Positions 2,908 through 51,570 of a stretch of 51,829 nucleotides of DNA are shown piece after piece. The stretch is from a bacterium (lineage in GTDB: Bacteria > Lernaellota > Lernaellaia > JACKCT01). The stretch spans positions 1-51,829 of the forward strand of contig JAIOHV010000150.1 of NCBI GenBank assembly GCA_019912885.1, given 5' to 3'. A program made the position numbers and the translations under genes. Numbering within the stretch: position 1 is the first letter of the stretch; every line of letters starts with the position of its first letter. The notes under the pieces were generated by a model. That model did no database searches. It had not been told where the DNA came from and saw only the letters and a program-made list of their open reading frames with translations.

Positions 2908-3591
2908 TTAAAAGATCGACACGAACACCGGCGCGCCGCAGTCCGGGCCGCCGCCGGTGCAATCCCACACGAGTTTCACGCGCGCGGCCCAGGGGCACCA
3001 CGTCGTCGGATTCGCGAGCCAGCCGGCGGCGTCCTGCTCCACGTAACACGGCGCGGCGTCGCACAGCTCGATCCACACGTCGCCGAAGGTCACGCCGTCC
3101 GGGTCGTGGCGGTACGCGTAGCCGGGGTTGTGCGTCGCGTCGAGTTCGATCGGCCCGCCGGGGATGCCGAGCGTGTCGGCCGACGGCGCGCTTGCGAGCC
3201 ACGACTCGATGTGCGCGACGCCTTCCGCACCCGTAACCCACGTGTAGAAGAACTGCCCGACCGCGTTGAACGCGAGCAGATAACCTTCGGTGGGCCACGC
3301 CGTTTGCGCATGCCACGCGCCGCAGGCGTCGTCGTCGTCATCGCCGGTGTCATCGTCCGACGTGTCGTCGTCGCCGGTATCGTCGTCGTCGTCGTCATCG
3401 TCCGCGTCGTCGTCCGGCGCCGTGTCGTCGTCCGATTCATCGTCGTCGATCGAGTGGTCGTCATCCGCATCGTCTTTCGCCGCGTCGTCACCGTCCGCGT
3501 CGTCGTCGTCGCTATCCGCGCACGAACACGAAACGCAAAGCATCAGCGCCGCGATCAGCAGAGCGGCAAGAATCGGGCGTCCGTTTCGCAT
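2908..3591 (-). CDS. Asp-rich lipoprotein, 227 residues
   Basis: The N-terminus MRNGRPILAALLIAALMLCVSCSC is a lipoprotein signal with the lipid-attachment Cys in the CVSCSC cluster. The ATG at 3591 is chosen over a TTG at 3612 because it begins directly at the basic n-region. A tract of roughly 65 residues made almost only of Asp with scattered Ser, Thr and Ala follows, then a compact C-terminal domain of about 130 residues with six Cys and many Trp and Tyr, suggesting a disulfide-bonded extracytoplasmic domain. The architecture matches the larger lipoprotein at the left edge. No enzyme motif is visible and the function is unknown. Confidence 0.8.
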   Translation of the reverse strand: MRNGRPILAALLIAALMLCVSCSCADSDDDDADGDDAAKDDADDDHSIDDDESDDDTAPDDDADDDDDDDDTGDDDTSDDDTGDDDDDACGAWHAQTAWPTEGYLLAFNAVGQFFYTWVTGAEGVAHIESWLASAPSADTLGIPGGPIELDATHNPGYAYRHDPDGVTFGDVWIELCDAAPCYVEQDAAGWLANPTTWCPWAARVKLVWDCTGGGPDCGAPVFVSIF

Positions 3592-27423: not shown

Positions 27424-29079
27424 ATGCAGGATAAAGCAACGCTGAAAAAAGTTACGGTAAAGACACCTATTATGGACCTGGAATGGGAAGCTGGTGGAAA
27501 GGGTCATTGTTTTGCGACGCGTTTAATTAACGGGATTCGAAGGCGTTGTTACAATAAATGGAAGAATCGAGTAAATCCATTGCGAATAGTGAATTTTTCT
27601 TATCTATCTTATGATCTGGACAAGTTATCAGATCAAACAGAAGCAATTTTAAGTCTTTTAAAAAAGTATGGTTGGTCAGGTTTCAATATTGACAACTGCA
27701 AACTGTCAAAAGCAAATGTTTACAATGTTGACAACAATATTTTTGCCCTTGCGTATGATTTAGAACCTGGATGTTTGGATTTCTCTTTTAACAGAAGCAA
27801 AAATAATGGCGAACTTGTCGAGTTCATAGTAGACGACCAACTAATAATCGGCGGGTTATATATTATGGTATCCGTACGCGATAAAAGTGGCGTTTTGTGC
27901 AATAAATGTATTAACATTACGACAGTAAAAAGTGATCAGGATATTGGGCCTCACGGAGATGGCTCCTATGAATGGAAGGCCTATGCTCCCACGTTGAATA
28001 TTAAAAAGGGTTGGCAATCGATCAGGGTTAATGTTCCTTTGGTTTTAAAAAAACAGGCATTTAATGGCATTTATACTCTTGACACTATTATTGGGATCAG
28101 ACTTCGAGGTAAATGTAAAATAGTTGGCATCAACTCTTACAATATAACCACTCCATCCAAAATTGAACCGTCTGATGCGATGGATGCTGACACAAGTGAA
28201 CCATCTATAGAGCCAGACAAACTATGGTATTCTGTCAAGGGGACCTGGGCTCAAAGCGGAGATGTTCTGGAACTAAATGCACCTGATATCGGTCCAGACG
28301 CATATTACGTTTGGAATAGCAGGGTAGCGCGACAGCAAGAGGCAGTGTTTAATTTCAACTTTTCCTTTTTATCGTTGCAAAAGACAGATATACGCCTTGT
28401 AGTTTTTGCAAAAAGCCCTACAGAAAACTATCAGTCCTCTGACCACTTGGTTATTTATTGCCCGTGGGAATCCGGTGGGTTTAGAGTTGATATTCTAAAA
28501 AATGACAAAATAGAACACATCCACCGTGAAGACAAAAACAAACCATCTTTTAAGATTTCACAGAACCATAAAGTAAAAGTTAAAATTAAAGGTAAAACAG
28601 TCAGAATATTCTATGACGGGTCGCCAGTGCTTATTGCTTCGGATGAGAGATTATTGGCGTACACAACACGAGGACAATGGTATTGGGGATTCTCTACGGT
28701 CTGCGGAAACGTACGAGTTTCGAATATCTATTTGGAACCTCTGGAAAACGATAGTATGAAGAGGGGCGCTTTAACTGACAGTAAAAAGGATGGTGATGGC
28801 GATTTCGTATCTCATCCTAAAAAAATTTCCCAAAAGGATAGATTGGTAAAATCCACTACGATTAGAACGGCCATGAGCGGGATTGTCTTTCTCCTTTTGG
28901 AGTTTGCGGTTGGTAGATATGTGAATCAATATGGAGAAGGTAGTAACTTTTTACAGAAATCGGTCAACTCGTGGGTTCTGTACGCCTGTGGTTTTGGAGC
29001 CGTCGCCTTTATATTTCCATTCTACTTGGGGAAAGAGAGATTGAAAATATTAAAGTTATGGAAAGGTGATAGCGATTAA
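27424..29079 (+). CDS. AT-rich cargo: membrane-anchored protein with LamG/concanavalin-like domain
   Basis: The protein has 551 residues; ATG 27424 follows GGAG at 7-8 bases. Codon use is strikingly AT-rich compared with everything around it, a sign of recent transfer. Residues 1-255 are beta-rich with no recognised motif. Residues about 265-440 resemble a jelly-roll of the LamG/DUF1080 kind: HKVKVKIKGKTVRIFYDG, then GQWYWGFSTVCGN and VRVSNIYLEPL. After a charged linker come two hydrophobic helices (about 485-500 and 520-540), so the protein is probably held in the inner membrane by its C-terminus with a cytoplasmic bulk (no signal peptide). Position between integration site and recombinase suggests cargo, perhaps defence. 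The function is unknown. Confidence 0.7.
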   Translation: MQDKATLKKVTVKTPIMDLEWEAGGKGHCFATRLINGIRRRCYNKWKNRVNPLRIVNFSYLSYDLDKLSDQTEAILSLLKKYGWSGFNIDNCKLSKANVYNVDNNIFALAYDLEPGCLDFSFNRSKNNGELVEFIVDDQLIIGGLYIMVSVRDKSGVLCNKCINITTVKSDQDIGPHGDGSYEWKAYAPTLNIKKGWQSIRVNVPLVLKKQAFNGIYTLDTIIGIRLRGKCKIVGINSYNITTPSKIEPSDAMDADTSEPSIEPDKLWYSVKGTWAQSGDVLELNAPDIGPDAYYVWNSRVARQQEAVFNFNFSFLSLQKTDIRLVVFAKSPTENYQSSDHLVIYCPWESGGFRVDILKNDKIEHIHREDKNKPSFKISQNHKVKVKIKGKTVRIFYDGSPVLIASDERLLAYTTRGQWYWGFSTVCGNVRVSNIYLEPLENDSMKRGALTDSKKDGDGDFVSHPKKISQKDRLVKSTTIRTAMSGIVFLLLEFAVGRYVNQYGEGSNFLQKSVNSWVLYACGFGAVAFIFPFYLGKERLKILKLWKGDSD

Positions 29080-29513
29080 ACTACTTGTGGCCGTTTAATT
29101 ATTCCAAAAGAGGTTTTCTGATCCAACCAAAGAAGTGGAATATGTTTTGTTATTTTGGAGAGCGACAATCCGGAAGGCTCTTGTCCTTCAAGAATAAACT
29201 CCACGATGTCTGGTGCTAGAAGCGTTAAGCGGAGAATCCTGCTCAAGTATGACGCATCGACGCGAAAAATCTTTGCCAATTCGCTCATCGAAGCGACCTG
29301 CCCGGTCTCTAGCAATTCCTTCCATCGAAAAGCGCGGGCCAGCGCGACGAGCAGCGCATATTTGGCGGGTTGCTTTCGTGGCAGAAACTTCTCCAATCCC
29401 TCGGGCACGATGATTTCCTTCCGCCCACCGCGCCGTTTGAACTTCAGCGGGATGTGAATGCGGATGCTCTGGCCGTCACGGTGGAGGGTGATCTTCTCGT
29501 CCTGCTCATCCAT
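29076..29513 (-). CDS. HTH partner protein of serine recombinase
   Basis: The protein has 145 residues; its ATG (29513) overlaps the recombinase stop by 8 bases. The middle part, SMSELAKIFRVDASYLSRIL followed by LAPDIVEFIL, is a ParB/KorB-like helix-turn-helix segment often found in the small gene directly after DUF2924-linked recombinases. The N-terminus (IHIPLKFKRRGGRKEIIVPE) is beta-rich and basic. The role is probably DNA binding at the recombination site or regulation of the cassette; this is inference from context. It ends convergently with the cargo gene, overlapping by 4 bases. Confidence 0.75.
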   Translation of the reverse strand: MDEQDEKITLHRDGQSIRIHIPLKFKRRGGRKEIIVPEGLEKFLPRKQPAKYALLVALARAFRWKELLETGQVASMSELAKIFRVDASYLSRILRLTLLAPDIVEFILEGQEPSGLSLSKITKHIPLLWLDQKTSFGIIKRPQVV

Positions 29514-31038
29514 CGACACTGATCCTTTCCTCGCGGTCGCCCAGTTCGTCGACGAGCGAGTGTAGGCCATCCGACCGCATGACCACTTCCGCGCCGGTCT
29601 CGCTCACCACCACGCGTTCGATCAGCAGGCTCACGATGCGCGCCTGCTCGGCTGGAAATAACTCGTCCCACACCGCGTCGAGGTTGCTCAGTGCGTCAGC
29701 GACCTGCTGCTCGGACAGGGGGTTGGCCTGCATCGCGGCGACCGTGGCGTCGATCTCAATGATCCGTTCGTTGATGTCGCGTTGGCGCAGCGGGTTGCTG
29801 GCCGTGGGCAACTCGCCCGCCAGGTCGAACCGTTCGCTTTTCAGGCGCTCGATTTCCTCGTTCTCTTTTTGCCGGGTGACGCGGCAGGTCTCGGCGACGA
29901 GTTCCGGCGACTGGAACACCGCGCGCATCTGGGCCATGACCGCGCCCTCGATCTCGCCCGCGGACACGTTTTTCACCGGACAGGTGTCCCACCCTTTTTT
30001 GGTCGCCTGGATGCAAACGTAATAGCGGTACGTCTTGCCGTTCTTCTTCGTGAACGATGGCCCCATCGACCCGCCGCAGTGCCCGCACTTGATGATGCCC
30101 TTGAGCAGCGCGGGCGTCTTGGCGCGAGCCTTGTTTCCACGAATGCGGTAGTTCTCTTCGAGGATGGCCTGGACCTTATTGAAAAGATCGCGCGGTACGA
30201 TGGCCTCGTGCTCGCCCGGATAGACTTGGTCCTTGTGGACGATCTCGCCGACGTAGATGCGATTGTTGAACAGCCGATACAGGTGCATCTTGTGCCACGG
30301 CTGCCCGGGCCGGACGACGCCTTTCGCCGTGGTCCACGATTTCGTCTGGCGTCCTTGTTCATTGAGTTCCCTGGCGAGCAACGTCGCAGATTGCGCTACG
30401 ACGAACCGCTTGAAGATGTGCCGCACCAGTTCCGCTTCCTTGGGATTCACGATCAGTTTCTTGGCGACGCGGTCCACGTCGTATCCGAGGATCGGCATGC
30501 CGCCGGTGTACTTTCCCTTGCGCTTGGAGGCGGCGATTTTGTCGCGGATGCGCTCGCCGATGATCTCGCGCTCGAACTGCGCGAACGAAAGAAGGATGTT
30601 GAGCGTCAGGCGCCCCATTGATGTCGTCGTATTGAACTGCTGCGTCACAGAAACGAACGTCACGCCCTGACGCTCGAAGGTCTCGACGATCTTCGTGAAG
30701 TCGAGCAGTGAGCGAGAAAGCCGGTCGACCTTGTAGACGACCACGCAATCGATCCGTCGCTCCTCGATGTCCTGCAGCAGGCGCTTGAGTGCTGGGCGCT
30801 CTATCGTGCCGCCGGAGAAACCGCCATCGTCGTATCGGTTCGTGAGAGCGACCCAGCCTTCGCTTTTCTGACTGGCGATGTACGACTCGGCCGCCTCGCG
30901 CTGCGCGTCGAGTGAATTGAATTCCTGGTCGAGACCTTCCTCGGTCGATTTCCGCGTGTAGATCGCGCAGCGGACCTTGGGCGTCACGCCGTTGGGGGCT
31001 TTTCCATTGCCGTTGCCTTGGCTGTTCCCGTTTCTCAT
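29506..31038 (-). CDS. large serine recombinase
   Basis: The protein has 510 residues. The resolvase catalytic domain (about 20-175) has the nucleophile Ser31 in AIYTRKSTEEG, YDDGGFSGG, VVYKVDRLSRSL and the helix E region FAQFEREIIGERIRDK. A recombinase domain follows (HIFKRFV..., RLFNNRIYVGEI), then a zinc ribbon with CGHCGG and a second Cys pair (YVCI, DTCP), and a C-terminal coiled coil around EEIERLKSERF. These are all the parts needed for integration or excision through a double-strand break with 2-base overlap. It is the recombinase nearest the tmRNA junction. The start overlaps the DUF2924 stop (ATGA). Confidence 0.95.
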   Translation of the reverse strand: MRNGNSQGNGNGKAPNGVTPKVRCAIYTRKSTEEGLDQEFNSLDAQREAAESYIASQKSEGWVALTNRYDDGGFSGGTIERPALKRLLQDIEERRIDCVVVYKVDRLSRSLLDFTKIVETFERQGVTFVSVTQQFNTTTSMGRLTLNILLSFAQFEREIIGERIRDKIAASKRKGKYTGGMPILGYDVDRVAKKLIVNPKEAELVRHIFKRFVVAQSATLLARELNEQGRQTKSWTTAKGVVRPGQPWHKMHLYRLFNNRIYVGEIVHKDQVYPGEHEAIVPRDLFNKVQAILEENYRIRGNKARAKTPALLKGIIKCGHCGGSMGPSFTKKNGKTYRYYVCIQATKKGWDTCPVKNVSAGEIEGAVMAQMRAVFQSPELVAETCRVTRQKENEEIERLKSERFDLAGELPTASNPLRQRDINERIIEIDATVAAMQANPLSEQQVADALSNLDAVWDELFPAEQARIVSLLIERVVVSETGAEVVMRSDGLHSLVDELGDREERISVDG

Positions 31039-39048: not shown

Positions 39049-41264
39049 ACGAATCGACCCAATACCTGCGCGGCCGCGTGGAGACGCTCTACTTCGCCTC
39101 GTCCCGATATTCGGCGGGTCGCTTGAAAAAGAACGACGGCGAGGAAGTTAGCTTCGCGGGGAATGTCGTGGCCGCCGTCGGCGAGCAGGTCATCCTCCAG
39201 GGCGCGTGGGTGAATCACCCGAAGTATGGCAAGCAGTTTCAGGCCGACACGCTCACGCACGATCTCGATCTGTCTGTCGATGGCCTGGCTCATTATCTCG
39301 CCAACAATCCCGCGTTCGTCGGGCTGGGTCCGGTCAAAGCAAGGAGGATCGCCCAGGCGTTCGGGAAGGACTTCGGTCGCGTCATCGTCGAGAATCCCGA
39401 TGCCGTCGCCAAGGCCGGGCCGATCACGCTCGAGGCCGCGCAGAATATTCGTGCCGAATGGATGCGACACCAGGTCATCAATGCGGCCGCGACCGAGCTA
39501 TCCGCCTTCGGCCTCACGCATCACCAGGTGCGCTCGCTGATCGACAAATATGGCAACGACGCTGTCGCAATCATCACGAGCGATCCGTATCTGATTGTCC
39601 GGGATCTGCGGGGCTACGGATTTAAAACCGTGGACGCCATTGCCCGCAAGGTGGGCATACCCAAGGAATTTCCGCCGAGAGTGCGCGCCGGAATTCTCGA
39701 CTGCCTCGATGACGCCCTCGACCAGGGACACACCTGGATTGAAGAAGCTGATCTCATCGAGCGCGCCAACAAGCTGCTGGTCATGGACTCGCTCCAGAGC
39801 CGCGACATCATCGAGATGGAACTGAGCGGCTTGATCACCAATGGTGCTCTTTCCTGTGATTCCTATGACGGCCGCTTTCTCATTGCCCGCGCCGACATCC
39901 GGACGATGGAGCGCGAGGTCGAGCAGTGGCTGCGGGGCGGGGACAAGGACCATCCCTGCGTGTTCGACCTGCTGGGCGTCTGGCAGAAGGTCCGGGACGG
40001 CGAACTCTGTCCCGAATTAAATCCACGACAACGCGACGCCGTCGTCGCCGCGCTCACGCACCAGATCACCGTGATTTCCGGCGGCGCGGGCAGCGGCAAG
40101 ACCTTCACCGTAGGCGCACTGACGAAGCTGCTGGACCAGCATTTCATCAAGGTCATGCTCGCCGCACCGACCGGCAAAGCCGCCAAGCGCCTCGAACAGG
40201 TTGTCGGCAAAGAGGCGTTCACGATCCATCGCCTTCTCGGTTTCAACGGCCATGAGTGGTCGCGCGGCCCCGACGACCCCATCGACGCCGATGTCGTCAT
40301 CATTGACGAGACCTCGATGGTGGACCTGCACCTGGCGTGGCGTCTGCTTCGCGCCATCGACCTTGAGAAAACCGCCGTCGTATTTGTCGGCGATCACAAC
40401 CAGCTTCCGCCGGTCGGCCCCGGCGATTTGCTACGTGACATGATCCATACGGGCATCGTGCCTGGCGTCGTGCTGACCGACGTGGTTCGACAGGCCGGTG
40501 AACTCAAGGAAAACAGCACAGCGATCCTGCGGGGGAGCGTCGCCAAGACCTCGGCTCACGTCGATGCGCGTGGTCGCCGCCCCTGGTATTGCATCGACGA
40601 GTTCACAGACCCGTGGGATGTGCGGCGGTTTATTCGGGATCTGTATGAGACGGTCCTGGCCGACAAGCTCGGCTATGACCTGCTGGACGACGTTCAACTC
40701 CTGACACCCAAGCGCAAGGACATCCTGGGCGTCGACGAATTGAACATCGAACTGCAGAGTCTGATTCAGCGGAAGCTCTACGGCGTCGAGGCGCCCGCCG
40801 TTCCACCAGGACGCAGGCCGCCGTTTCTCCTCCACGACAAAGTCATCCAGCGCCGCAACAACTATGACCTCGGCATCATGAATGGAGCCATCGGGCGCGT
40901 TCTGGAATTGCTGCCCCACGGTGATCTGCGCGTGCGCTTCGACAACGCCGAGGTGACCCTCTGCCGCGCCGAGGGCGATCTGAACGATCTGCAACTCGCG
41001 TATGCGCTGACGATCCATCAGTGCCAGGGCAGCGAATTCCCCTGCGCCGTGGTGATCGTCCACAAGAGCCACAGCTTCATGCATTCGCAAAACTTGTTTT
41101 ACACCGGCGTCTCCCGCGCCAAGCAAACTACCATCGTCATCGGCGACCGCTGGGGCGTGCGGAACTGCGCCACGAAGAAAGCCAACGACCAGCGCAGTAC
41201 GTTCCTGGGATTGTGGCGAAAAGATAACGAGGCCGCCTCCCTCAAAGAGGCGCTGAATGAGTAA
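39045..41264 (+). CDS. recD2: RecD2-type 5'-3' DNA helicase
   Basis: The protein has 739 residues, the full family length. The N-terminal part has the RecD2-specific OB-like and tandem helix-hairpin-helix region (LGPVKARRIAQAFGKDF). Superfamily 1B helicase motifs follow: Walker A SGGAGSGKT (346-353), DVVIIDETSMVD, GDHNQLPPVGPG, and the C-terminal YALTIHQCQGSEFPCAVV and FYTGVSRAK. It unwinds DNA 5' to 3' and here probably supports element replication or recombination. The 3' end overlaps the primase gene by 8 bases. Confidence 0.93.
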   Translation: MNESTQYLRGRVETLYFASSRYSAGRLKKNDGEEVSFAGNVVAAVGEQVILQGAWVNHPKYGKQFQADTLTHDLDLSVDGLAHYLANNPAFVGLGPVKARRIAQAFGKDFGRVIVENPDAVAKAGPITLEAAQNIRAEWMRHQVINAAATELSAFGLTHHQVRSLIDKYGNDAVAIITSDPYLIVRDLRGYGFKTVDAIARKVGIPKEFPPRVRAGILDCLDDALDQGHTWIEEADLIERANKLLVMDSLQSRDIIEMELSGLITNGALSCDSYDGRFLIARADIRTMEREVEQWLRGGDKDHPCVFDLLGVWQKVRDGELCPELNPRQRDAVVAALTHQITVISGGAGSGKTFTVGALTKLLDQHFIKVMLAAPTGKAAKRLEQVVGKEAFTIHRLLGFNGHEWSRGPDDPIDADVVIIDETSMVDLHLAWRLLRAIDLEKTAVVFVGDHNQLPPVGPGDLLRDMIHTGIVPGVVLTDVVRQAGELKENSTAILRGSVAKTSAHVDARGRRPWYCIDEFTDPWDVRRFIRDLYETVLADKLGYDLLDDVQLLTPKRKDILGVDELNIELQSLIQRKLYGVEAPAVPPGRRPPFLLHDKVIQRRNNYDLGIMNGAIGRVLELLPHGDLRVRFDNAEVTLCRAEGDLNDLQLAYALTIHQCQGSEFPCAVVIVHKSHSFMHSQNLFYTGVSRAKQTTIVIGDRWGVRNCATKKANDQRSTFLGLWRKDNEAASLKEALNE

Positions 41265-44200
41265 CCCGCCTCGTCCTGATGCTGCGACCGCATGCCGCCT
41301 ACTGCGTGAATACTTTTTCTCGCGCATTGACATCGTGGCGGCCCGGCAGTCGTGGATCGACCGCAAGACCCAGGAACGCATCACGCAACCGCGTCCGGTG
41401 ACGGGCGATGCATATCTGGACGCGCTGATTGCTTTCCACGTTTCCGGCCCCGATCCGAGCAAGGCCCCGGCGCTCAACTACATCAACCGCAAAACCAACG
41501 GCCTCGTCGCGGACAAGCGCGGCTTTGATCGGGTCGGCAGCTATGCCGTGGCCCCGGACAATACGACCGTCTGGCTCTGCTTCGACTTCGATGGGCCGGG
41601 CCATCCGCTGCCGCTGGCTGATCCACTGGCGACGATGCTCGCCTGCGTGGAACGCTGCCGTGCGCTCGGTATCCCGGCGCATATTGAAAAGTCAGGCAGC
41701 GGCCACGGTTGGCATCTCTGGGTGTTTTTCGAAGCGCCAGTGCCCGCTGCCGATGCGCGACTGCTCGCGCATTTCGTTGCACCGACCGGCCATTTCCTTG
41801 TCAGCGGCGAATCCGCCGACATCCGGGCCGGCCGCGGAATCGAATGCTTCCCGAAGCAGAACAGCGTCAGCGACAAACCGTTCCGCGCGGGCAACATGGT
41901 TTGGTTGCCGTTCTGGTACGGGGCAAAGGACGGCGGCAATCAGTTTTATCGGATTGAGGACGGCGGAAGCCTTGTCCCGTTTGCGCCCGATGGGTTCGAC
42001 CGTCTGGCGGCCGCGCGGCTCCAGGATATCCTCGCGCAGGTACCCGACGAAATCCGGCGCTTCGTCTTGAAAACGAAGGGTGTACTAAAAGAGGCGTCGG
42101 CCCCCAAAAGTAGTCCACCCTCGGCTCCCGGAAATTTCGCACCCACAGATTCTGCCGTGGTCCACGCGGCGCTCGACCACATCTCGCCCGACTGCTCCTA
42201 CGACGACTGGCTCCATATCGGCATGGCGCTCCACCACTGGGACGCGCAGGCGGGCCTCGCGATCTGGGAAGCGTGGAGCGCGCGCGGCGAGAAGTATGTG
42301 GCCGGGGAACCATCGCTCAAGTGGGACGGCTTCACGTCCGGCGGCGGCGTCACGCTCGGCACGCTGTTCGACATGGCGAAGAAAGCAGGATGGACGCCGC
42401 CCGCGCATCAGCGAACGCCGCTGCCGACCGATGCAGAGATCGCCGCATTCATGGACATTGATCCGGCGGCGCTGCCGGTGACAAGTGCCGCCGCCACTCC
42501 GGAGCGCGCTGAAATCCTGCGATGTCTGACGCAATCAGCGGAAGCGCTGAGTCCCAAGGAGATCGCCGAGCGGCTCAACAAAGATTATTGGGCTGTCCAA
42601 AAAACCCTCAACCGCATGTCCAAATCGGGTCAGATCGAGAAATTTGGACATGGCAAGTACCGGGGTTTGGACACATCACCTGTCCAAATGGACGATTTGG
42701 ATACCCGCGAGCCTGTCCAATTGGACACTTCGCCTGTCCAAACGAACCATTTGGACACGTCACGCCCTGTCCAAAACGGCGATTTGGACACCCCGCGCGG
42801 TTCTCTCTCGCGCAATTTGGACACCTATGATGATCGCCCTCGCCTCCCCACCGTCGTCGTCAAGCGTCAATTGCGATACGAAACGGGGGACGCGTGGGCG
42901 GTGGTCCACGCCTCCAATTATCCGCCCAAGTTGTTCCAGAGAACCGGCGGGCTCGTGCGCCTAGCCCAGACCGACAATGCGCCGGTGATCATGCCGGTCG
43001 GTGAGACCGCACTTCTCGGGCACCTCTCACAGATTGCCAATTGGGTCGTTCAGACCAAGGACATGGAAGTTCCCGTGCATCCGCCTCGGAACGTCGTCGC
43101 GGTGATGGCGGCACTGCCGGACCCGACCCTGCCGCACCTTGAAACGGTCTCGTCCACTCCCATGTTCGACCACGACGGCTCTTTGATCGCCGCGCCAGGT
43201 TACCACCGCGAGGCGCGACTCTGGATGCATCGTCCTCTCAATTTCGACGTGGGCGATATTCCCGCGAATCCGACTTCGCATGAGATCGATGAAGCACGCT
43301 CCTTGCTGCTCGACGACTTGCTTGTTGATTTTCCGTTTGCGTCCGACGCGGACAGATGCCACGCGATGGCCGCGCTGTTTCCTACGTTCGTGCGCCGCAT
43401 GATCCACGGCCCGCTGCCCATCCATCTTATCGAAGCACCGACACCCGGCACCGGCAAATCGCTTCTGGCCGAAACCGTTTCCCTCGTGTGCGTGGGGCAC
43501 GGCGCCGATGTGACCACGTTCGACAGAGACGAAAACGACACGCGCAAAAAGATCACGGCGATTCTCGCTTCCGCCCCCCAGATCGTGCTGGTGGACAACC
43601 TGCGCAAGGGACTTCTGTCGTCGCAGATCGCGGCGGCGATCACGGCGGATATCTGGACGGACCGCCTGCTCCAGACCTCGCAGATGCTCCGGTTGCCCAA
43701 CCGCGCCATGTGGTTCGCCACGGCCAACAATCCCGCGCTCTCGATGGAAAACGCCCGCCGCAGCATCCGCATCCGTGTGGACGCCAAGATGGATCGACCG
43801 GGACGGCGGCGCGGCTTCAAGCACAACCCGCTGCGACAGTGGGTCATGGATAACCGCCCCGCATTGGTACGCGCTGTCCTCACCATCATTCGCGGTTGGG
43901 TCGCGGCGGGTATGCCGAACACAGACCAGGTGCTCGGCTCCTTCGAGTCATGGTCCAAGGTCGTCGGCGGAATTCTCCAATGGCTCGAGGTGCCCGGCTT
44001 CCTCGCCAACGCCGAAGAGCTTTACGAGATCGCCGACACCGAGGGCAGTGAATGGCGCGAGTTCGTCGCGGCATGGTGGGATCGCTTTGGTCCCCGGTTC
44101 GTCACGACAACCGATCTGCTCGGCCTCGCTACCGCCAAGGACCTTCTCGGCACCGTTATCGGCGATGGCGGCTCGCGCTCGCAGAAGATCCGTCTTGGCC

Positions 44201-44673
44201 GCGCTCTCGGCACGATGCGTGATCGCCAGTTTGATTTGTACCGGATCAAGATGAGCCGGGAGCGGCATTCCAAGCAGTGGGAATACGGTCTTGAGAAGGT
44301 CGATGAAAGCGAGAACCGCACCGCCTCAGTCCATCCGCTGTTTGCGGGTAGTGCGGGTAGTGGTGCGGGTAGTGCCGACCCCACTACCCGCATACAAAAT
44401 ACTCATGAAAACGGTCAGTTGGAATGCGCTGCGGGTAGTGCGGGTAGTGTACCTGAAACGTTAACGCATACGCATGCGCACGCGCCCGCACATACATGCG
44501 ATGCATCAACCTCAAAAAACCACCCGCACTACCCGCACGGCCAGCAAGACTTTGAAAACAAAGAGAAATGTCCTGCGGGTAGTGCTTCCGACCCAAAATC
44601 GAACTACCCGCACTACCCGCAAGACATCGTCGCCGATCTTGCCGCATTCGATATCGAGGAGGAAGAATCATGA
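41257..44673 (+). CDS. archaeo-eukaryotic-type primase fused to helicase, replication protein
   Basis: The protein has 1138 residues. The AEP primase domain has the metal acids in WLCFDFDG (D110, D112), SGSGHGWHLW (146-155) and IECFPKQN. A PriCT-like segment follows around 300-370 (CSYDDWLHIGMALHHWDAQ), then a winged helix (about 411-470; LSPKEIAERLNKDYWAVQKTL). From about 470 to 525 there is an 18-residue repeat with LDT...PVQ that comes from DNA iterons. The helicase-type ATPase has Walker A PTPGTGKS (G731-S735) and Walker B IVLVDN. The C-terminal 120 residues are low complexity (AGSAGS, HYPH) and also derive from DNA repeats. It probably initiates element replication from sites within its own gene. 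Confidence 0.88.
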   Translation: MSNPPRPDAATACRLLREYFFSRIDIVAARQSWIDRKTQERITQPRPVTGDAYLDALIAFHVSGPDPSKAPALNYINRKTNGLVADKRGFDRVGSYAVAPDNTTVWLCFDFDGPGHPLPLADPLATMLACVERCRALGIPAHIEKSGSGHGWHLWVFFEAPVPAADARLLAHFVAPTGHFLVSGESADIRAGRGIECFPKQNSVSDKPFRAGNMVWLPFWYGAKDGGNQFYRIEDGGSLVPFAPDGFDRLAAARLQDILAQVPDEIRRFVLKTKGVLKEASAPKSSPPSAPGNFAPTDSAVVHAALDHISPDCSYDDWLHIGMALHHWDAQAGLAIWEAWSARGEKYVAGEPSLKWDGFTSGGGVTLGTLFDMAKKAGWTPPAHQRTPLPTDAEIAAFMDIDPAALPVTSAAATPERAEILRCLTQSAEALSPKEIAERLNKDYWAVQKTLNRMSKSGQIEKFGHGKYRGLDTSPVQMDDLDTREPVQLDTSPVQTNHLDTSRPVQNGDLDTPRGSLSRNLDTYDDRPRLPTVVVKRQLRYETGDAWAVVHASNYPPKLFQRTGGLVRLAQTDNAPVIMPVGETALLGHLSQIANWVVQTKDMEVPVHPPRNVVAVMAALPDPTLPHLETVSSTPMFDHDGSLIAAPGYHREARLWMHRPLNFDVGDIPANPTSHEIDEARSLLLDDLLVDFPFASDADRCHAMAALFPTFVRRMIHGPLPIHLIEAPTPGTGKSLLAETVSLVCVGHGADVTTFDRDENDTRKKITAILASAPQIVLVDNLRKGLLSSQIAAAITADIWTDRLLQTSQMLRLPNRAMWFATANNPALSMENARRSIRIRVDAKMDRPGRRRGFKHNPLRQWVMDNRPALVRAVLTIIRGWVAAGMPNTDQVLGSFESWSKVVGGILQWLEVPGFLANAEELYEIADTEGSEWREFVAAWWDRFGPRFVTTTDLLGLATAKDLLGTVIGDGGSRSQKIRLGRALGTMRDRQFDLYRIKMSRERHSKQWEYGLEKVDESENRTASVHPLFAGSAGSGAGSADPTTRIQNTHENGQLECAAGSAGSVPETLTHTHAHAPAHTCDASTSKNHPHYPHGQQDFENKEKCPAGSASDPKSNYPHYPQDIVADLAAFDIEEEES
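42594..42823. repeat. inverted iteron array TGTCCAA/TTGGACA inside primase gene
   Basis: TGTCCAA starts at 42594, 42617, 42681, 42714, 42735 and 42768; its complement TTGGACA starts at 42644, 42667, 42721, 42751, 42784 and 42817, with one variant TTGGATA at 42697. Part is a 54-base tandem repeat (42667 to 42721), but the copies at 42617 and 42644 are in another reading frame, so the DNA word itself appears to be conserved. Candidate replication origin or initiator-binding site. Confidence 0.8.
44344..44620. repeat. second inverted iteron array GCGGGTAGTG/CACTACCCGC
   Basis: GCGGGTAGTG starts at 44344, 44353, 44365, 44431, 44440 and 44575; CACTACCCGC starts at 44382, 44527 and 44611, with ACTACCCGC at 44603. 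The complement at 44382 is in a different reading frame from the other two. The array lies in the last 330 bases of the primase-helicase gene, about 1.5 kb from the first iteron family and with a different word. Confidence 0.78.
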
Positions 44674-45866: not shown

Positions 45867-46190
45867 ATGAAAGCCGGCACCGAAAAATCGACTCGCATCA
45901 TCCACTGCGCCAACTGCCTGCACTGCAAGGTTTATCTCGAACGGGCCGAGCGCGGCGCTAATGCCGAACGTCGCGTCCGCTGCGCCGTCGGCAATTGGCA
46001 GACGCCCTCGAACAAGGAACGGACTTACTGCTACCACACGGTCCTCAAGCGCCGCATGGTCTCGTGCCCCGATTACAACAGCATGGGCGAACGCGACCGC
46101 GACGAGTTTCTGAAGGACCTGCGCGACAACCTGCCCGTCGAGCGCGACGTGGTCGATGTGAGCGCGCTGGCCGTCGGAGCAAATGCGTGA
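45867..46190 (+). CDS. Cys-rich small protein, zinc-ribbon-like
   Basis: The protein has 107 residues; ATG 45867 has a perfect GGAGG 4-5 bases upstream, better than ATG 45831. Cys pattern CANCLHC, RRVRCAVGNW, TYCYHT, VSCPDY suggests a zinc-binding fold. Family unknown; typical small early phage gene. Confidence 0.65.
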   Translation: MKAGTEKSTRIIHCANCLHCKVYLERAERGANAERRVRCAVGNWQTPSNKERTYCYHTVLKRRMVSCPDYNSMGERDRDEFLKDLRDNLPVERDVVDVSALAVGANA

Positions 46191-46538: not shown

Positions 46539-47099
46539 ATGGTCGATTCTGATGCGAACTTGAAGGATGAGGACGTCGTCATCCGCTTTAAGAAGCGCAT
46601 ACGGCGCTGCAAGGCGAAAATGAAGAGCAATGGCGAGCGCTGCACCCACCCGGCCGTGGAGGGATACACGGTTTGCCGCTTTCACGGGGCGAATCCCAAG
46701 AACAAAGGCGGAAGTCCGAAGGGAAATCTGCACGGTCTGACCCACGGCGCGTATGTGAAGCGTTTGCTCGACGAGCAGGACAAGGAACTCTTCGACCAGA
46801 CGCTCGATGCGATCCGCCGTGACTTCGATCTCAATGACTCGACCGACCAGATTCAGGCGGCGATGGCGTCGTTTTACTTCACGCGGTGGTACCGCGCCAT
46901 CGAGGGCAAGGCTGACGCGGCCATCGGCGAGTTCGATGTGCTGCTGCGTAAGCAACTTGAATCACTCAAGACCACGCGGGCGCAGCGGGACACTGGCGGC
47001 GGGCCGCAGACGTCGCCCGCTGAGTGGGCCGTGGCGCTGCTGGAGAGCGTGCGCGGCGAGGCGCCAATCAAGGCGCCGAAGGAAAAACCGGAGGACTGA
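46539..47099 (+). CDS. terminase small-subunit-like zinc-finger protein
   Basis: The protein has 186 residues; GGAG is 7-8 bases before the ATG. The region RCKAKMKSNGERCTHPAV with VCRFHG forms a CxxxxxxxxxC...CxxHG zinc motif, followed by GGSPKGNLHGLTHGAYVKRL, a HGxY pattern found in phage packaging small subunits and HNH-type companions. The helical C-terminus suits oligomerisation. The large subunit is 2.9 kb further on, beyond an inserted reverse block. The call is by motif and place, not certain. Confidence 0.65.
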   Translation: MVDSDANLKDEDVVIRFKKRIRRCKAKMKSNGERCTHPAVEGYTVCRFHGANPKNKGGSPKGNLHGLTHGAYVKRLLDEQDKELFDQTLDAIRRDFDLNDSTDQIQAAMASFYFTRWYRAIEGKADAAIGEFDVLLRKQLESLKTTRAQRDTGGGPQTSPAEWAVALLESVRGEAPIKAPKEKPED

Positions 47100-47212
47100 T
47101 GCTGCGAGAACACGAAACCTATCGCGCAGAAGTCGCTCGCGGTGGTCGGCGCAAGTACGCGGACTGTCGCGGTTCGGCCTTCCGCCGTTCCGCGCATAAG
47201 ACGCCTTCTGTG

Positions 47213-47231
47213 AATAAAAAGCCGGGCGGCT
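47213..47231 (-). terminator. terminator-like hairpin after tyrosine recombinase gene
   Basis: On the minus strand AGCC and GGCT pair around GCCC, followed by TTTTTATT, directly at the recombinase stop. The stem is short (4 bp). The 130 bases between the convergent terminase-like and recombinase genes show no supported gene. Confidence 0.4.
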
Positions 47232-48169
47232 CAGAGGCTCTCGAGGGCGTCCTCGAGATCGTCGTCGGTGATGTGGGCGTAGACCTGCGTGGTTGTGACG
47301 CGGGCATGGCCGAGGGCTTTGGCGACGAGCAGCAGGTTGTGCGTGCGGCCATAGAGCAGCGTGGCGAAGGTATGGCGCAAGCCGTGGACGGTGATCTTAC
47401 CGTCGAGCCCGGCCCAGGCGAGCCAGAGGCCCATGCGCTCCTGGACCTGGCGGGTGGAAATCCTCCGACCACGATTCGAGAGGAAGAGCGCGTCGGTCTC
47501 GGCCATCTCCTTGCGGCGGCGCTGTGTGTACTTGCGAAGGATCGACCGCAGTTCGGTGTTCAGGAAGCGCACCTGGGCCTTGCCTCCCTTGGCCCGCCGG
47601 ATGCGCAGCTGCTTCTCGTCCAGGCGCACGTCGCCGATGTCGAGGCCGACCAGTTCCGCCAGGCGGATGCCCGTTCCGAGCAGGACGCGCAGCATGACCA
47701 GATCGCGCTCGGCGGCCACGCCCTTGCGCGTGGCGACCGCCTTGACGAGCGCCTTCACCTCGGTGGCGCTGAGGAACGACGGCGCTTCCCGGTCGTGCCG
47801 CTTGATCTTGATCCAGTCGGCGGGGTCGCGCCTCGTTGCGCCCACGTTGGCCACGTAGCGCCCGAAGCTGCGGAGGCAGGCCTTTATGCGCCCCAGACTC
47901 GCTTCGCCACGGGGCGCGCCCGTGTGCGTCGTGGTGACCGAAGCCGACAAAAGGAACCGCGCCAGCAGATCGGCACTCAGAACCGAGGCGTCCACGTCGC
48001 CCGCGAAGGCGAGCAGCAGACGCAGATCCCGGCCATAGCAGCTGAGGGTGTGCGGGCTTTTGCCGTCGGCCTCCAGGCGCGTCAGGTAGCTCTCGATCAA
48101 TTCCGAAAGTGTTCGGGACGGGTGGTACTGAGTCGCAGGGGTCTGGAGAGGGTCGCGCAGGGTCTGCAT
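47231..48169 (-). CDS. tyrosine recombinase / phage integrase
   Basis: The protein has 312 residues, XerC/D size. The N-terminal core-binding domain (about 20-125) is followed by the catalytic domain with Arg in GTGIRLAELV, Lys in RRAKGGKAQV, the box II HGLRHTFAT, LGHARVTTTQ and the nucleophile Tyr in QVYAH. All catalytic residues are present. It closes a minus-strand block of seven small genes that separates the terminase genes. It could resolve dimers, integrate the element or belong to a nested insertion. Confidence 0.93.
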   Translation of the reverse strand: MQTLRDPLQTPATQYHPSRTLSELIESYLTRLEADGKSPHTLSCYGRDLRLLLAFAGDVDASVLSADLLARFLLSASVTTTHTGAPRGEASLGRIKACLRSFGRYVANVGATRRDPADWIKIKRHDREAPSFLSATEVKALVKAVATRKGVAAERDLVMLRVLLGTGIRLAELVGLDIGDVRLDEKQLRIRRAKGGKAQVRFLNTELRSILRKYTQRRRKEMAETDALFLSNRGRRISTRQVQERMGLWLAWAGLDGKITVHGLRHTFATLLYGRTHNLLLVAKALGHARVTTTQVYAHITDDDLEDALESL

Positions 48170-48172
48170 GAT

Positions 48173-48469
48173 TCACTGCTCCTTTCCAGGGTCAGAGCCG
48201 GGGGCGGCTTCGATCACGAATCGCGGTTTGCCGTGGCGACTCCCGCCCGTGGCATCCGCCGGAATCTCGATATGGACGATCCCGGCGCGCATGGCCTTTT
48301 TGAGGTTGGGTCCTGCGAATCCCGCCAGCTTGGTCCAGTGGGCGGCCGTGCTCGGCGGTTGGTCGAGCGACTGCTCCCACCGAGACGTCTGCTCGTGGGC
48401 GGCGGCGATCTCGTCACGAACCGCCGCGAGGTCGATGGAGACCGAGTTTTTGTCCGGCATGGCGTTCAT
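48173..48469 (-). CDS. small phage protein ahead of integrase
   Basis: The protein has 98 residues, 3 bases before the integrase gene. It has a helical start (IDLAAVRDEIAAAHEQTSRW) and a later HWTKLAGFAGPNLKKAM. ATG 48469 overlaps the previous stop (ATGA). Family unknown. Confidence 0.6.
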   Translation of the reverse strand: MNAMPDKNSVSIDLAAVRDEIAAAHEQTSRWEQSLDQPPSTAAHWTKLAGFAGPNLKKAMRAGIVHIEIPADATGGSRHGKPRFVIEAAPGSDPGKEQ

Positions 48470-48696
48470 GATTTGTCCTCGTCCAGCGGCACCAGATCCT
48501 CGCGCCGCGCATCGCTCGTGACCCACGAGAACCGCTGTTCTTTCTCGATCCACGGTGCGACGTCCCAGAGTCCGGTGGGCCGTCCGTTGTCGCCCAGGAT
48601 CGGCTCGTTCACTCTCACCTTGAGTCCTGTCATGAAGGTGTGGACCGTTCCCACGTACCGCGCGACCATACCGCGTCGCAATTTAGGCTTTGGCAT
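48466..48696 (-). CDS. small phage protein
   Basis: The protein has 76 residues, beta-rich (MVARYVGTVHTFMTGLKVRV, then DVAPWIEKEQRFSWV). AGGAGGT is 5 bases before the ATG at 48696. It overlaps both neighbours. No family is recognised. Confidence 0.65.
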   Translation of the reverse strand: MPKPKLRRGMVARYVGTVHTFMTGLKVRVNEPILGDNGRPTGLWDVAPWIEKEQRFSWVTSDARREDLVPLDEDKS

Positions 48697-48871
48697 CGTT
48701 GACCTCCTGGTTGGGATTTTCCTGGCCTGCGTCCTGGCCAGCATTTTGTTTTTCCATTGCCGCCGCGATGCGCTCCAGGACGGTGTTCAGCCGTTCAAGC
48801 TCGCGGGCGATGGTGGGCATGGTGTGCTCGTAGAACGTGTGCCCCATGCGCGTCTGGTAGAACTCTGTCAC
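48683..48871 (-). CDS. small coiled-coil phage protein
   Basis: The protein has 62 residues; GTG 48871 has GGGAG 7 bases upstream. TMPTIARELERLNTVLERIA is a likely amphipathic coiled coil and the tail is Gln/Asn-rich. It overlaps the next gene by 14 bases. Family unknown; the 162 bases upstream show no gene. Confidence 0.6.
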   Translation of the reverse strand: MTEFYQTRMGHTFYEHTMPTIARELERLNTVLERIAAAMEKQNAGQDAGQENPNQEVNDAKA

Positions 48872-49033
48872 TTGGCTCTCCCTTCTGTTTTGGTTCCTCG
48901 TGCTCACGCGCCGCATGAGGGCTTCGGGACACATCAAAGTCAAGGGAAAACAACCACTTATGCGAACTTTTCCGGCCCGAAGAGAAGCGCCCGTTGGCGG
49001 GCGCAAGAGGTGGGAAAGTGTTCGTGGTGGGCG

Positions 49034-49288
49034 TTATGGAGTGACTGTCTTGTCCTCGGTTCGACTCTGCTCTCCGCAGGCTCGGAAGCCTCGGAAGATT
49101 CCCTCGGCGTAGGTCTTGCGGTTGGCCTTGTCGTCGAGCCAGAAGGCGGCCTCGACGTGGCCAAGGTCCAGGGCGATGGCGGCGACCGCATTCCGGTCGA
49201 GCATGTTCGTGCGCCCGGAGACGCGGACGGCCTCGATGCCCTTCAGCACCTCGGGTGGGATGGGGACTTTGCCGTTGGCGTCCGACAT
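49034..49288 (-). CDS. DUF5049-like small protein
   Basis: The protein has 84 residues. The pattern GIEAVRVSGRTNMLDRNAVAAIA followed by ALDLGHVEAAFWLDDKANRK matches DUF5049 proteins of phages. It starts 3 bases after the core-binding-domain gene. Function unknown. Confidence 0.75.
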   Translation of the reverse strand: MSDANGKVPIPPEVLKGIEAVRVSGRTNMLDRNAVAAIALDLGHVEAAFWLDDKANRKTYAEGIFRGFRACGEQSRTEDKTVTP

Positions 49289-49291
49289 GGC

Positions 49292-49723
49292 TTACTCGGC
49301 GCTCGCGGCGGGCTTTTCGCCGTCAGCGGCGGGATCGGCCTCGGCGCTTTCCTTGACCTTCGCCAGTTCGTCCTTGGGCAGCGGCACCTTATCGAGCCAT
49401 CCCTGGTCCTTGCAGAACACCAGCATCATGCGGAAGACGCGCTTGGTCTGGTCGATGGTGTGGTGACTGCGCGGCCGCTCCTGGCGCGCCTCGCCCTCTT
49501 TCTTGGGTTCGCGGATCAGCTTGTTGACGGCGTCGCTCTTGAAGAAGGCGGCGATGTGGACCGGCAAGAACTTGGCGATGTCTTTGCCCTCGCCGAAATG
49601 CTCGACCGCGAGGTCGAGGTGCCGCCCATACGTGACGACGGTCCGTTCGTTCTTGCCGAGTTCCTTCAGGTGGGCAACGTACTTCTCGGCGGCCTGTTTG
49701 ATCGTGATGGTCTTCGTGCTCAT
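49292..49723 (-). CDS. stand-alone tyrosine-recombinase core-binding (SAM-like) domain protein
   Basis: The protein has 143 residues. The opening TIKQAAEKYVAHLKELGKNE and TVVTYGRHLDLAVEHFGEGK, then HTIDQTKRVFRMMLVFCKDQGWLDK, are the two helical hairpins of a phage-integrase N-terminal core-binding domain. The catalytic domain is absent and the C-terminus is a charged tail, so it cannot cut DNA by itself. It lies in the same operon as the full tyrosine recombinase and may compete for or mark its sites. GGAG is upstream of the ATG. Confidence 0.75.
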   Translation of the reverse strand: MSTKTITIKQAAEKYVAHLKELGKNERTVVTYGRHLDLAVEHFGEGKDIAKFLPVHIAAFFKSDAVNKLIREPKKEGEARQERPRSHHTIDQTKRVFRMMLVFCKDQGWLDKVPLPKDELAKVKESAEADPAADGEKPAASAE

Positions 49724-49738
49724 GGGGTTCTCCTTCGC

Positions 49739-49930
49739 TCAGTTGGTTTGTTGGGGCTTCACTTCGCGCCGCAGACGCGCGGCGGTCTTGATCCGGACTT
49801 CGCGGTGGGTGACGGTGTTGACGCCGACCCAGCCGTTGCGCGGGTGTTCGGCCTGAATGCGAACCGGCACAACCGCGCCGGACACCTTGGCCAGATACGT
49901 CCCGCCCACTCTTACGCTGTCTTTCTTCAT
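49739..49930 (-). CDS. small beta-rich phage protein, first gene of reverse block
   Basis: The protein has 63 residues (KKDSVRVGGTYLAKVSGAVV...), a small beta barrel-like sequence common in phages. AAGGAG is 7 bases before the ATG. Divergent from the terminase large subunit across 110 bases that should contain both promoters. Confidence 0.7.
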   Translation of the reverse strand: MKKDSVRVGGTYLAKVSGAVVPVRIQAEHPRNGWVGVNTVTHREVRIKTAARLRREVKPQQTN

Positions 49931-50040
49931 GCTGTTTCTCCTTTCGATTCAGCAGCTTACGACGTGTCACATCGCTTCACGTGGCGGGCAAGTCAAGGAC
50001 TTTCTGCGACCGAATGCGAGATTCTTCGGGAGGCGGCATG

Positions 50041-51570
50041 ATGGTCAGTACCGCACTACCCAAGGACCGCCATGAGATCGCCCGCGTCCTGGGCGACCCC
50101 GTGCTCTGGGGCCAGGCGTACTTGCACGACCGCGACGGATCGCGCCGCGTTTTCTGGAAGCACCAGGCCGAGGACCTGCGGTGCGAGCGCGGCAACATCA
50201 TCCACCTGGACGGCAGAGATTCTGGAAAGTCGATCACGTTGGCGGGCGATGTCCTGCACTACGCCTTCACCACGCGTAACGGCATGGGCCTAGTGGCCGC
50301 GCCGCACCAAGGGCACCTCGACACGATCATCGACGAGGTGGAGTTCCAGATCGGCGCGAATCCGGACCTGGAAGCGTCCATCGCTAAAAACAAGAACGGC
50401 ACGCCCAAGATCAAGCGCAGTCCCTATTTCCGGATCGAGTTCACCACCGGCACGGTGCTTCACTTCCGGCCCGCCGGACCCTATGGCGAAGCGTCGTTTC
50501 GGTCGCTTCACGTGGACCGCCTTTGGGTGGACGAGGGCGCGTGGATTCCGGAGAGGGCGTGGAATGCTCTGCGCCAGTGCCTCAACGCGGGCGGCAAGTT
50601 CCGCATTTACTCGACGCCCAACGGCCTGCGCGATACGACCTACTACCGGCTGACGGAAACGAAAAAGTGGAAGGTGTTCCGCTGGCCGTCGTGGATCAAC
50701 CCGACGTGGACGCCCGAGCGCGAGGCGGAACTCGTGGAATTCTACGGCGGCAAGGACACGCCGGGTTGGCAGCACGAGGTCGCGGGCGAGCACGGCAAGC
50801 CGAGCTTCGGCGCGTTCGATCTGGATGCGCTCCACGCCTGCCGCAAGGAAGTGCCGGATTATCGCCTGGTCGTCATCACCAGCGAGGAGTTGGAGGGATG
50901 CGAGGACGAGGCGGCGGTGCGCGAGCGCTTCGACATGCTCGTGAATCTATCGCCGAAAACGGGCGCCTATTGGCTCGGCATCGACACCGGCTACACGAGC
51001 GATCCGACGGAACTGGTGGTGTTCCGCGAGGATGAATTCGGCCTCACGATGGTGCTGCGCGTCCACGGCGAGCAGGTGCCGTACCCGTGGCTCTCCGAAC
51101 TTATCCGCATCCTGGACATCTACTTCGAGTTCGCGGGCATCGGCCTGGACAACGGCGGCAACGGCCTGGCCGTGGCGCAGGAACTGACGAGCCTGGACAA
51201 GTTCAAGGACCGCCATTTTCTCGGTCGGCTGATGGGCTTCGACTTCGGCGGCAACACCATCGTGAGCTTCGATACGGAGGGCAAGCCGACCAAGAAGCGC
51301 ACGAAGGAACACATGACCGCGCTGATTAATGCGGCGCTGCGACGCAGGCTGATTACCTTCCCGCGCGACGACCGCCAGATCGAAGAGCAATTTGCCACGC
51401 AGACCTACACCATGACGGACGGCCGCGTGACCTACAGCAAGGGCCGCGACCACATCATCGATGCGGTGCGCTGTGCGCTGCTGGCCAAGGACCGCAAGGC
51501 GTTCGCGGCGCAGGGGACGCACTTTGAAGAGGTCTTCTTGCTGCCTCTGGCGACCAAGCCGATTTTTTGA
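50041..51570 (+). CDS. phage terminase large subunit
   Basis: The protein has 509 residues. ATPase part: Walker A HLDGRDSGKS (58-64), Walker B LWVDEGAW. Nuclease part: LGIDTGYTSDPTEL with the metal Asp, IGLDNGGNGLAV and the late DHIIDAVRCALL. It packages DNA into the prohead. ATG 50041 is chosen with GGAGG 7 bases upstream; ATG 50038 and GTG 49981 are alternatives. The Walker A carries Asp-Ser in the position often Lys/Arg-Gly, as in some related families. Confidence 0.92.
   Translation: MVSTALPKDRHEIARVLGDPVLWGQAYLHDRDGSRRVFWKHQAEDLRCERGNIIHLDGRDSGKSITLAGDVLHYAFTTRNGMGLVAAPHQGHLDTIIDEVEFQIGANPDLEASIAKNKNGTPKIKRSPYFRIEFTTGTVLHFRPAGPYGEASFRSLHVDRLWVDEGAWIPERAWNALRQCLNAGGKFRIYSTPNGLRDTTYYRLTETKKWKVFRWPSWINPTWTPEREAELVEFYGGKDTPGWQHEVAGEHGKPSFGAFDLDALHACRKEVPDYRLVVITSEELEGCEDEAAVRERFDMLVNLSPKTGAYWLGIDTGYTSDPTELVVFREDEFGLTMVLRVHGEQVPYPWLSELIRILDIYFEFAGIGLDNGGNGLAVAQELTSLDKFKDRHFLGRLMGFDFGGNTIVSFDTEGKPTKKRTKEHMTALINAALRRRLITFPRDDRQIEEQFATQTYTMTDGRVTYSKGRDHIIDAVRCALLAKDRKAFAAQGTHFEEVFLLPLATKPIF

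Follow-up and report, generated by a model that had tools for sequence, protein, structure and literature searches.

Origins embedded in initiator genes (lambda O), helicase-linked iterons (pWTY27, SaPI, SCCmec) and, as general background, the two iteron regions of phage P4 are already known. The P4 alpha protein is a primase-helicase whose C-terminal domain binds DNA, and it uses this one domain for both of its iteron regions (ori/crr and ori2). In the O initiator of phage lambda, the DNA-binding domain is followed, inside the protein's own gene, by the iterons that are bound. The location of the lambda origin within the O gene is cited in PMC7157519. Origins within initiator genes are known as individual examples, lambda being one. 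Binding of the RepA protein of the Streptomyces plasmid pWTY27 to its repeats has been shown by EMSA and DNase I footprinting, and these repeats lie in the minimal replication locus and are needed for replication (PMC3583192). The initiator helicases SaPI Rep and SCCmec Cch2 recognise short iterons through their C-terminal domains, and their origins are located immediately downstream of the genes (PMC7581432).

The window considered here, the whole analysed stretch of 51,829 bases (contig C150 of a bacterial draft genome), contains a primase-helicase gene, P0001, with two arrays of short words about 1.5 kb apart, each beside a different domain. As in lambda O, an initiator DNA-binding domain is followed by iterons within the same gene; unlike lambda O, which is not a primase or helicase, P0001 is a fusion with two domain-array pairs, and its iterons are short words on both strands. 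The pWTY27 system shares a homologous helicase whose gene is immediately followed by GC-rich repeats on both strands, but there the iterons lie outside coding sequence and the primase has a gene of its own, whereas the second array of P0001 lies in the coding tail and the gene additionally has an internal winged helix with a first array. SaPI Rep and SCCmec Cch2 are similar in the recognition of short iterons by a helicase C-terminal domain and differ in helicase family, in their non-coding origin and in having one array. P4 alpha is likewise a primase-helicase with a C-terminal DNA-binding domain and a pair of iteron regions, but one domain serves both regions, whereas P0001 has two domains and different words. 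Within the literature searched, with most subscription journals outside its scope, no reports were found of coding-embedded iterons in primase-helicases, of a gene with two domain-array pairs, of a one-residue code, or of a general coding-embedded layout in these families.

Domain organization of P0001

The P0001 open reading frame (41257..44673, + strand, 1138 aa) matches Pfam AEP-TOTE and PriCT_2 and the helicase/primase PHROGs 10537 and 19930, and its domains are ordered as primase, PriCT_2, winged helix, linker, helicase half, C-terminal domain and tail. The archaeo-eukaryotic-type primase domain occupies aa 15-229 (41299..41943, + strand; PF22548, E 9e-20) and PriCT_2 aa 303-374 (42163..42378, + strand; PF08707, E 1e-21). 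The internal winged-helix domain (aa ~413-470, 42493..42666, + strand) is modelled by AlphaFold2 with pLDDT of 85-93 across the domain, and its Foldseek matches are the IclR, MarR, Zur and Zalpha winged helices at a TM of about 0.6. Its recognition helix in the model spans aa 444-456 (42586-42624, + strand) and includes the predicted specificity residue K449 (42601-42603, + strand), which corresponds to the helix column found below to associate with the word.

The AAA-type helicase half (aa 625-1020, 43129..44316, + strand), assigned by tblastn, PHROGs and an AAA match (PF00004) in the relative L013, is a homologue of pWTY27 RepA, with 30.5% identity over aa 557-962 (tblastn, E 1e-37). The C-terminal predicted DNA-binding domain (aa ~935-1015, 44059..44301, + strand) rests on high-confidence AlphaFold2 secondary structure with the winged-helix-like element order helix-helix-helix-strand-strand; a fold search with this domain gave zero significant matches, and the winged-helix label is therefore provisional. 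The search for solved structures related by sequence returned one marginal primase match only. Homology to lambda O is absent, as Pfam and PHROGs return primase, PriCT_2 and helicase families only; P0001 would work like an O protein while not being one by homology.

Array 1 and the coding constraint

Array 1 (42594..42823, both strands) comprises 12 exact copies of TTGGACA/TGTCCAA, six per strand, and the variant TTGGATA at 42697, with most copies extending to TTTGGACA. This recount agrees with an earlier note made from the sequence, which also described a 54-base tandem unit that is indeed present (42667-42774, 2.0 copies). The whole window holds 14 copies of the word, 12 in the array and two elsewhere, against a chance expectation of 3.8 in dinucleotide shuffles. 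No comparable array was found elsewhere in the window outside P0001 or in any of 200 codon-order shuffles of the gene. The same array detector, run on 588 kb from 83 other phage contigs, returned only two comparable arrays, of which one lies immediately after a replication gene, and the phage collection contained no DNA-level relatives of the array-1 region. The array had been placed just after the winged-helix segment; it adjoins the domain, yet starts inside its coding stretch, with the copies at 42594 and 42617 overlapping the codons of the recognition helix. Repeats of one word thus occur near an initiator gene beyond chance and coding constraint, as in iterons, and they lie within that gene beside its DNA-binding domain, as in the layout of lambda O.

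A highly improbable explanation is that the linker is a functional repetitive peptide (LDT-PVQ, AGS) and that the DNA repeats are a side effect of it. The tandem unit exists, and arrays of this kind probably grow in part by tandem duplication, but both strands and several reading frames are used: the copies at 42617 and 42644 are in phase 1, as the note had observed, the other plus-strand copies in phase 0 and the minus-strand copies in phase 2. Synonymous-codon nulls are also rejected. When codons are redrawn from the gene's own usage with the protein fixed, the mean is 0.96 copies and the maximum 5, compared with 12 observed (0/2000), and when synonymous codons are permuted within the array region the mean is 6.8 and the maximum 11 (0/2000). 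Under such nulls, peptide repetition is rejected as the source of array 1 in five genes and of the second array in six; for array 1 of L009, the stricter codon-permutation null alone fails to reject it.

The relatives of P0001 alter the peptide and retain the array. A search for conservation of TTGGACA had been proposed, and conservation of the same word is ruled out, with every relative having its own. At the array-1 position, L013 of the 62-72% identity class carries a GGTTACA array, L009 and L010 of the same class carry CATTACA, and L017 (about 40% identical) carries CCGGACA on one strand in all three reading frames. The encoded peptides differ among relatives in step with the words. The case named in advance as refuting an origin, an LDT-PVQ peptide kept while the word is lost, was looked for in these relatives and was not found; the opposite is seen, a persisting array of sites whose word differs from relative to relative, with the peptide altered to match. 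Because relatives hold an array at the same place with different words, it is, judging from the sequences, the DNA array rather than the LDT-PVQ peptide that is kept. Nulls, frames and relatives all agree in excluding peptide repetition as the source of the copies.

The viral relatives L139-L142, whose helicase half is 42-52% identical, lack both the internal winged helix and array 1, while array-bearing relatives have the winged helix; the domain and the array are accordingly present or absent together in the nine genes compared. A similar recognition helix occurs in L037/L038 with no array. Array 1 is dispensable within the family, an optional module.

Array 2 behind the helicase half

Scanning of P0001 revealed a second array, absent from the earlier note. 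Array 2 (44343..44621, both strands) has 12 copies of TGCGGG, 11 of them as TGCGGGT and mostly TGCGGGTAGTG, with many at 9-bp spacing, a number reached in 0/2000 draws of the synonymous-codon null. It lies behind the C-terminal domain of the helicase and is coded in the protein tail. Every intact relative has array-2-type repeats in its coding tail, with its own variant word. The position is shared by L009 (TGCGGTG), L013 (TGCGGGAC) and the viral relatives, which retain the array with slightly different words, GCGGGAC in L139 and L142, GCGGAAC in L140 and GCGGTAC in L141.

In distant helicase relatives among plasmids and phages the array sits just past the stop codon, with GTGGGAA x10 in pWTY27 (L093), CGGGTTT x10 in pCM32, CGGGTAG x14 in a Streptomyces plasmid, GCGGGTA x8 in a methanogen phage and AGTGGGT x6 in an Azospirillum prophage; four others (L095, L098, L099 and L103) have none of these repeats. 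P0001 shares with the pWTY27 family a homologous helicase and mixed-strand, GC-rich repeats behind the C-terminal domain, here coding rather than non-coding, and in both its position and its kind array 2 is homologous to the iterons to which pWTY27 RepA binds.

Midway through array 2 lies an alternating purine-pyrimidine tract of 22 nt and then 14 nt (44464..44500), the longest such run in the window and a candidate unwinding element. Alternating tracts occur at the same place in L013 (30 nt), L009 (22), L140 (42) and L141 (23), and none was found mid-array in L139, L142 or the third element of this genome described below.

Winged helices followed by arrays in other replication genes

The arrangement of a winged helix followed by an array extends to RepA (AAA_25) helicases, a class unrelated to that of P0001. 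From 80 viral loci fetched for a similar C-terminal winged helix, 67 were usable, some of them near-duplicate contigs, and 30 of these 67 reached the threshold of at least seven copies of a 7-mer, with copies on both strands, within 510 bp from the end of the winged helix onward, compared with 0 of 311 control windows drawn from the same loci. Some of the RepA arrays are coding (PVTPVT, DHSDHS, CRQSRQS) and others begin past the stop codon, and the occurrence of both alike again points to DNA; the many arrays after a stop codon likewise argue against a peptide by-product. The survey shows what looks like a general layout in which a domain is followed by its sites, whether coding or not. A winged-helix profile alone was dropped as a survey tool, as it mostly matched ordinary regulators.

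Among the viral contigs L216-L295, RepA-type helicases end in PVTPVTPVT, DHSDHSDHS, CRQSRQSRQ or VHEVHEVHE repeats, and these repetitive C-terminal peptides appear to be translated iteron arrays. Four bacterial RepA-type genes (L079, L081, L067 and L073) have an iteron-like array just past the stop codon, with the words GGGACA, AAAGTTA, GGAACGG and GTTTTC. The layout could serve as a search rule for candidate origins in many phages, satellites and plasmids not yet characterised, and it offers an explanation for puzzling repetitive peptides in replication proteins.

Covariation of word and recognition helix

Across 43 non-redundant helix-word pairs, word similarity tracks recognition-helix similarity when the rest of the winged helix is allowed for (partial Mantel r 0.27, p 0.0002). 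Helix column 6, the position of K449 in P0001, alone associates with the XY of XYACA words (23 words; 0/2000), with K paired with GG in 5/5, Q with TG in 7/7 and V with TT in 3/5. Because this pattern was seen before being tested, predictions were fixed in advance for new loci, where they held in part, with 7/17 matches on target against 1/34 off target (p 0.0006). Success was 6/9 for the closest winged helices and, by residue, 3/3 for V, 2/7 for K and 2/7 for Q; the two new cases with M both contradicted the prediction, and among distant winged helices the predictions for K and Q were mostly wrong. A fully general recognition code is unsupported, as many distant helices and the M prediction fail. 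A one-residue code appears real but limited, being partly predictive and readily testable, and the change of words together with the domain suggests that the protein code of such genes conceals the signals at which their own replication starts.

A probable composite origin and its alternatives

Taken together, the data point to P0001 as a fused primase-helicase initiator whose two pairs of initiator and sites probably form a composite origin, with array 2 as the likelier core and array 1 as the optional module. The sequences themselves show the two arrays, selection on them as DNA, their placement beside the two domains, the shared occurrence of array 1 and the internal winged helix, and the covariation of word and recognition helix, which points indirectly to binding. 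From these observations we infer binding, origin function and a division of labour between the arrays. The P0001 protein would bind both arrays of its own gene in cis. The internal winged helix (aa 413-470) would bind TTTGGACA at array 1, which runs from the codons of the recognition helix into those of the linker behind it; the comparison with lambda O drawn earlier seems apt in this respect, as the words lie beside the winged helix most likely reading them. The C-terminal helicase domain would bind TGCGGGT at array 2; the pWTY27 footprints were made with whole RepA, so the choice of this domain is inferred. Array 2 would be the helicase assembly site and core origin, the helicase probably opening the alternating purine-pyrimidine tract between the inverted halves of the array, and array 1 would anchor the primase half and add specificity.

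The earlier note had taken array 1 as the candidate origin. Its view of the words as DNA-level sites is upheld, but array 1 by itself as the origin is not, given that array 2 is more conserved and that L139-L142 lack array 1. A lambda O-like origin at array 1 alone, with array 2 secondary or regulatory, is accordingly doubtful: array 1 is dense, mixed-strand and adjoins a confident winged helix, and in RepA-type elements the winged-helix array is the only one detected, but relatives without array 1 persist, and array 2, which every intact relative has, corresponds to plasmid iterons that have been footprinted. Cumulative GC skew, suggested as a check, was computed and has its minimum at 46136, which is closer to array 2 than to array 1; this weak minimum, confounded by gene direction, is compatible with the origin model and was dropped as decisive evidence.

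L104 at the end of contig C6 and L105 at the end of contig C197 appear to be the halves of a third such element of the same genome, whose unity is presumed because it is split over two contig ends. The two halves share the word ACCGGACA, with 15 copies in the primase half and three exact copies of this array-1 word in the middle of array 2 in the helicase half. These array-1 words inside an array 2 favour a joint function and tie the two arrays together.

In iteron plasmids, copy control is often exerted through iterons that lie away from the core origin. A second alternative, less probable than the composite origin though more so than array 1 alone, is that array 2 alone is the origin and array 1 a control site bound by the internal winged helix, with roles in handcuffing, copy control, autoregulation, incompatibility or partition. 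The optional nature of array 1 and the common copy-control role of iterons outside the core would fit this, while the interdigitation of the array-1 word with array 2 in the third element and the occurrence elsewhere of homologous winged-helix arrays without any other array speak against it.

Within the composite origin, a bolder proposal has slightly less than even odds, namely that two complete and separately evolving cassettes, each a winged helix with its DNA words carried through the protein code, make up a bipartite origin. The first would be an exchangeable module that is common among the replication proteins of phages, satellites and plasmids, its word partly readable from one residue of the recognition helix (K to GGAC, Q to TGAC, V to TTAC), and low-complexity tails of such proteins, PVTPVT or DHSDHS for example, would be translated iterons. 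The two different pairs in P0001 would make primase-linked and helicase-linked origin recognition separable by recoding with the protein unchanged.

Genomic context

P0001 most likely belongs to a prophage, since its neighbours are phage recombination, helicase and packaging genes (Pfam, PHROGs) and the ORF at 29506-31038 reads as a serine recombinase. Neither terminal repeats nor circularity was found in contig C150. The segment 27001-28500, at 42% G+C within a contig of 60-65% and spanning a 551-aa ORF (27424-29079), is probably foreign DNA. The 1005-aa plus-strand ORF at 47024-50041 has no Pfam or PHROG match, is overlapped by a minus-strand ORF (47231-48169) that reads like a tyrosine recombinase, and is probably spurious. 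A further tandem repeat at 3326-3511 is CGT-rich and in a single frame.
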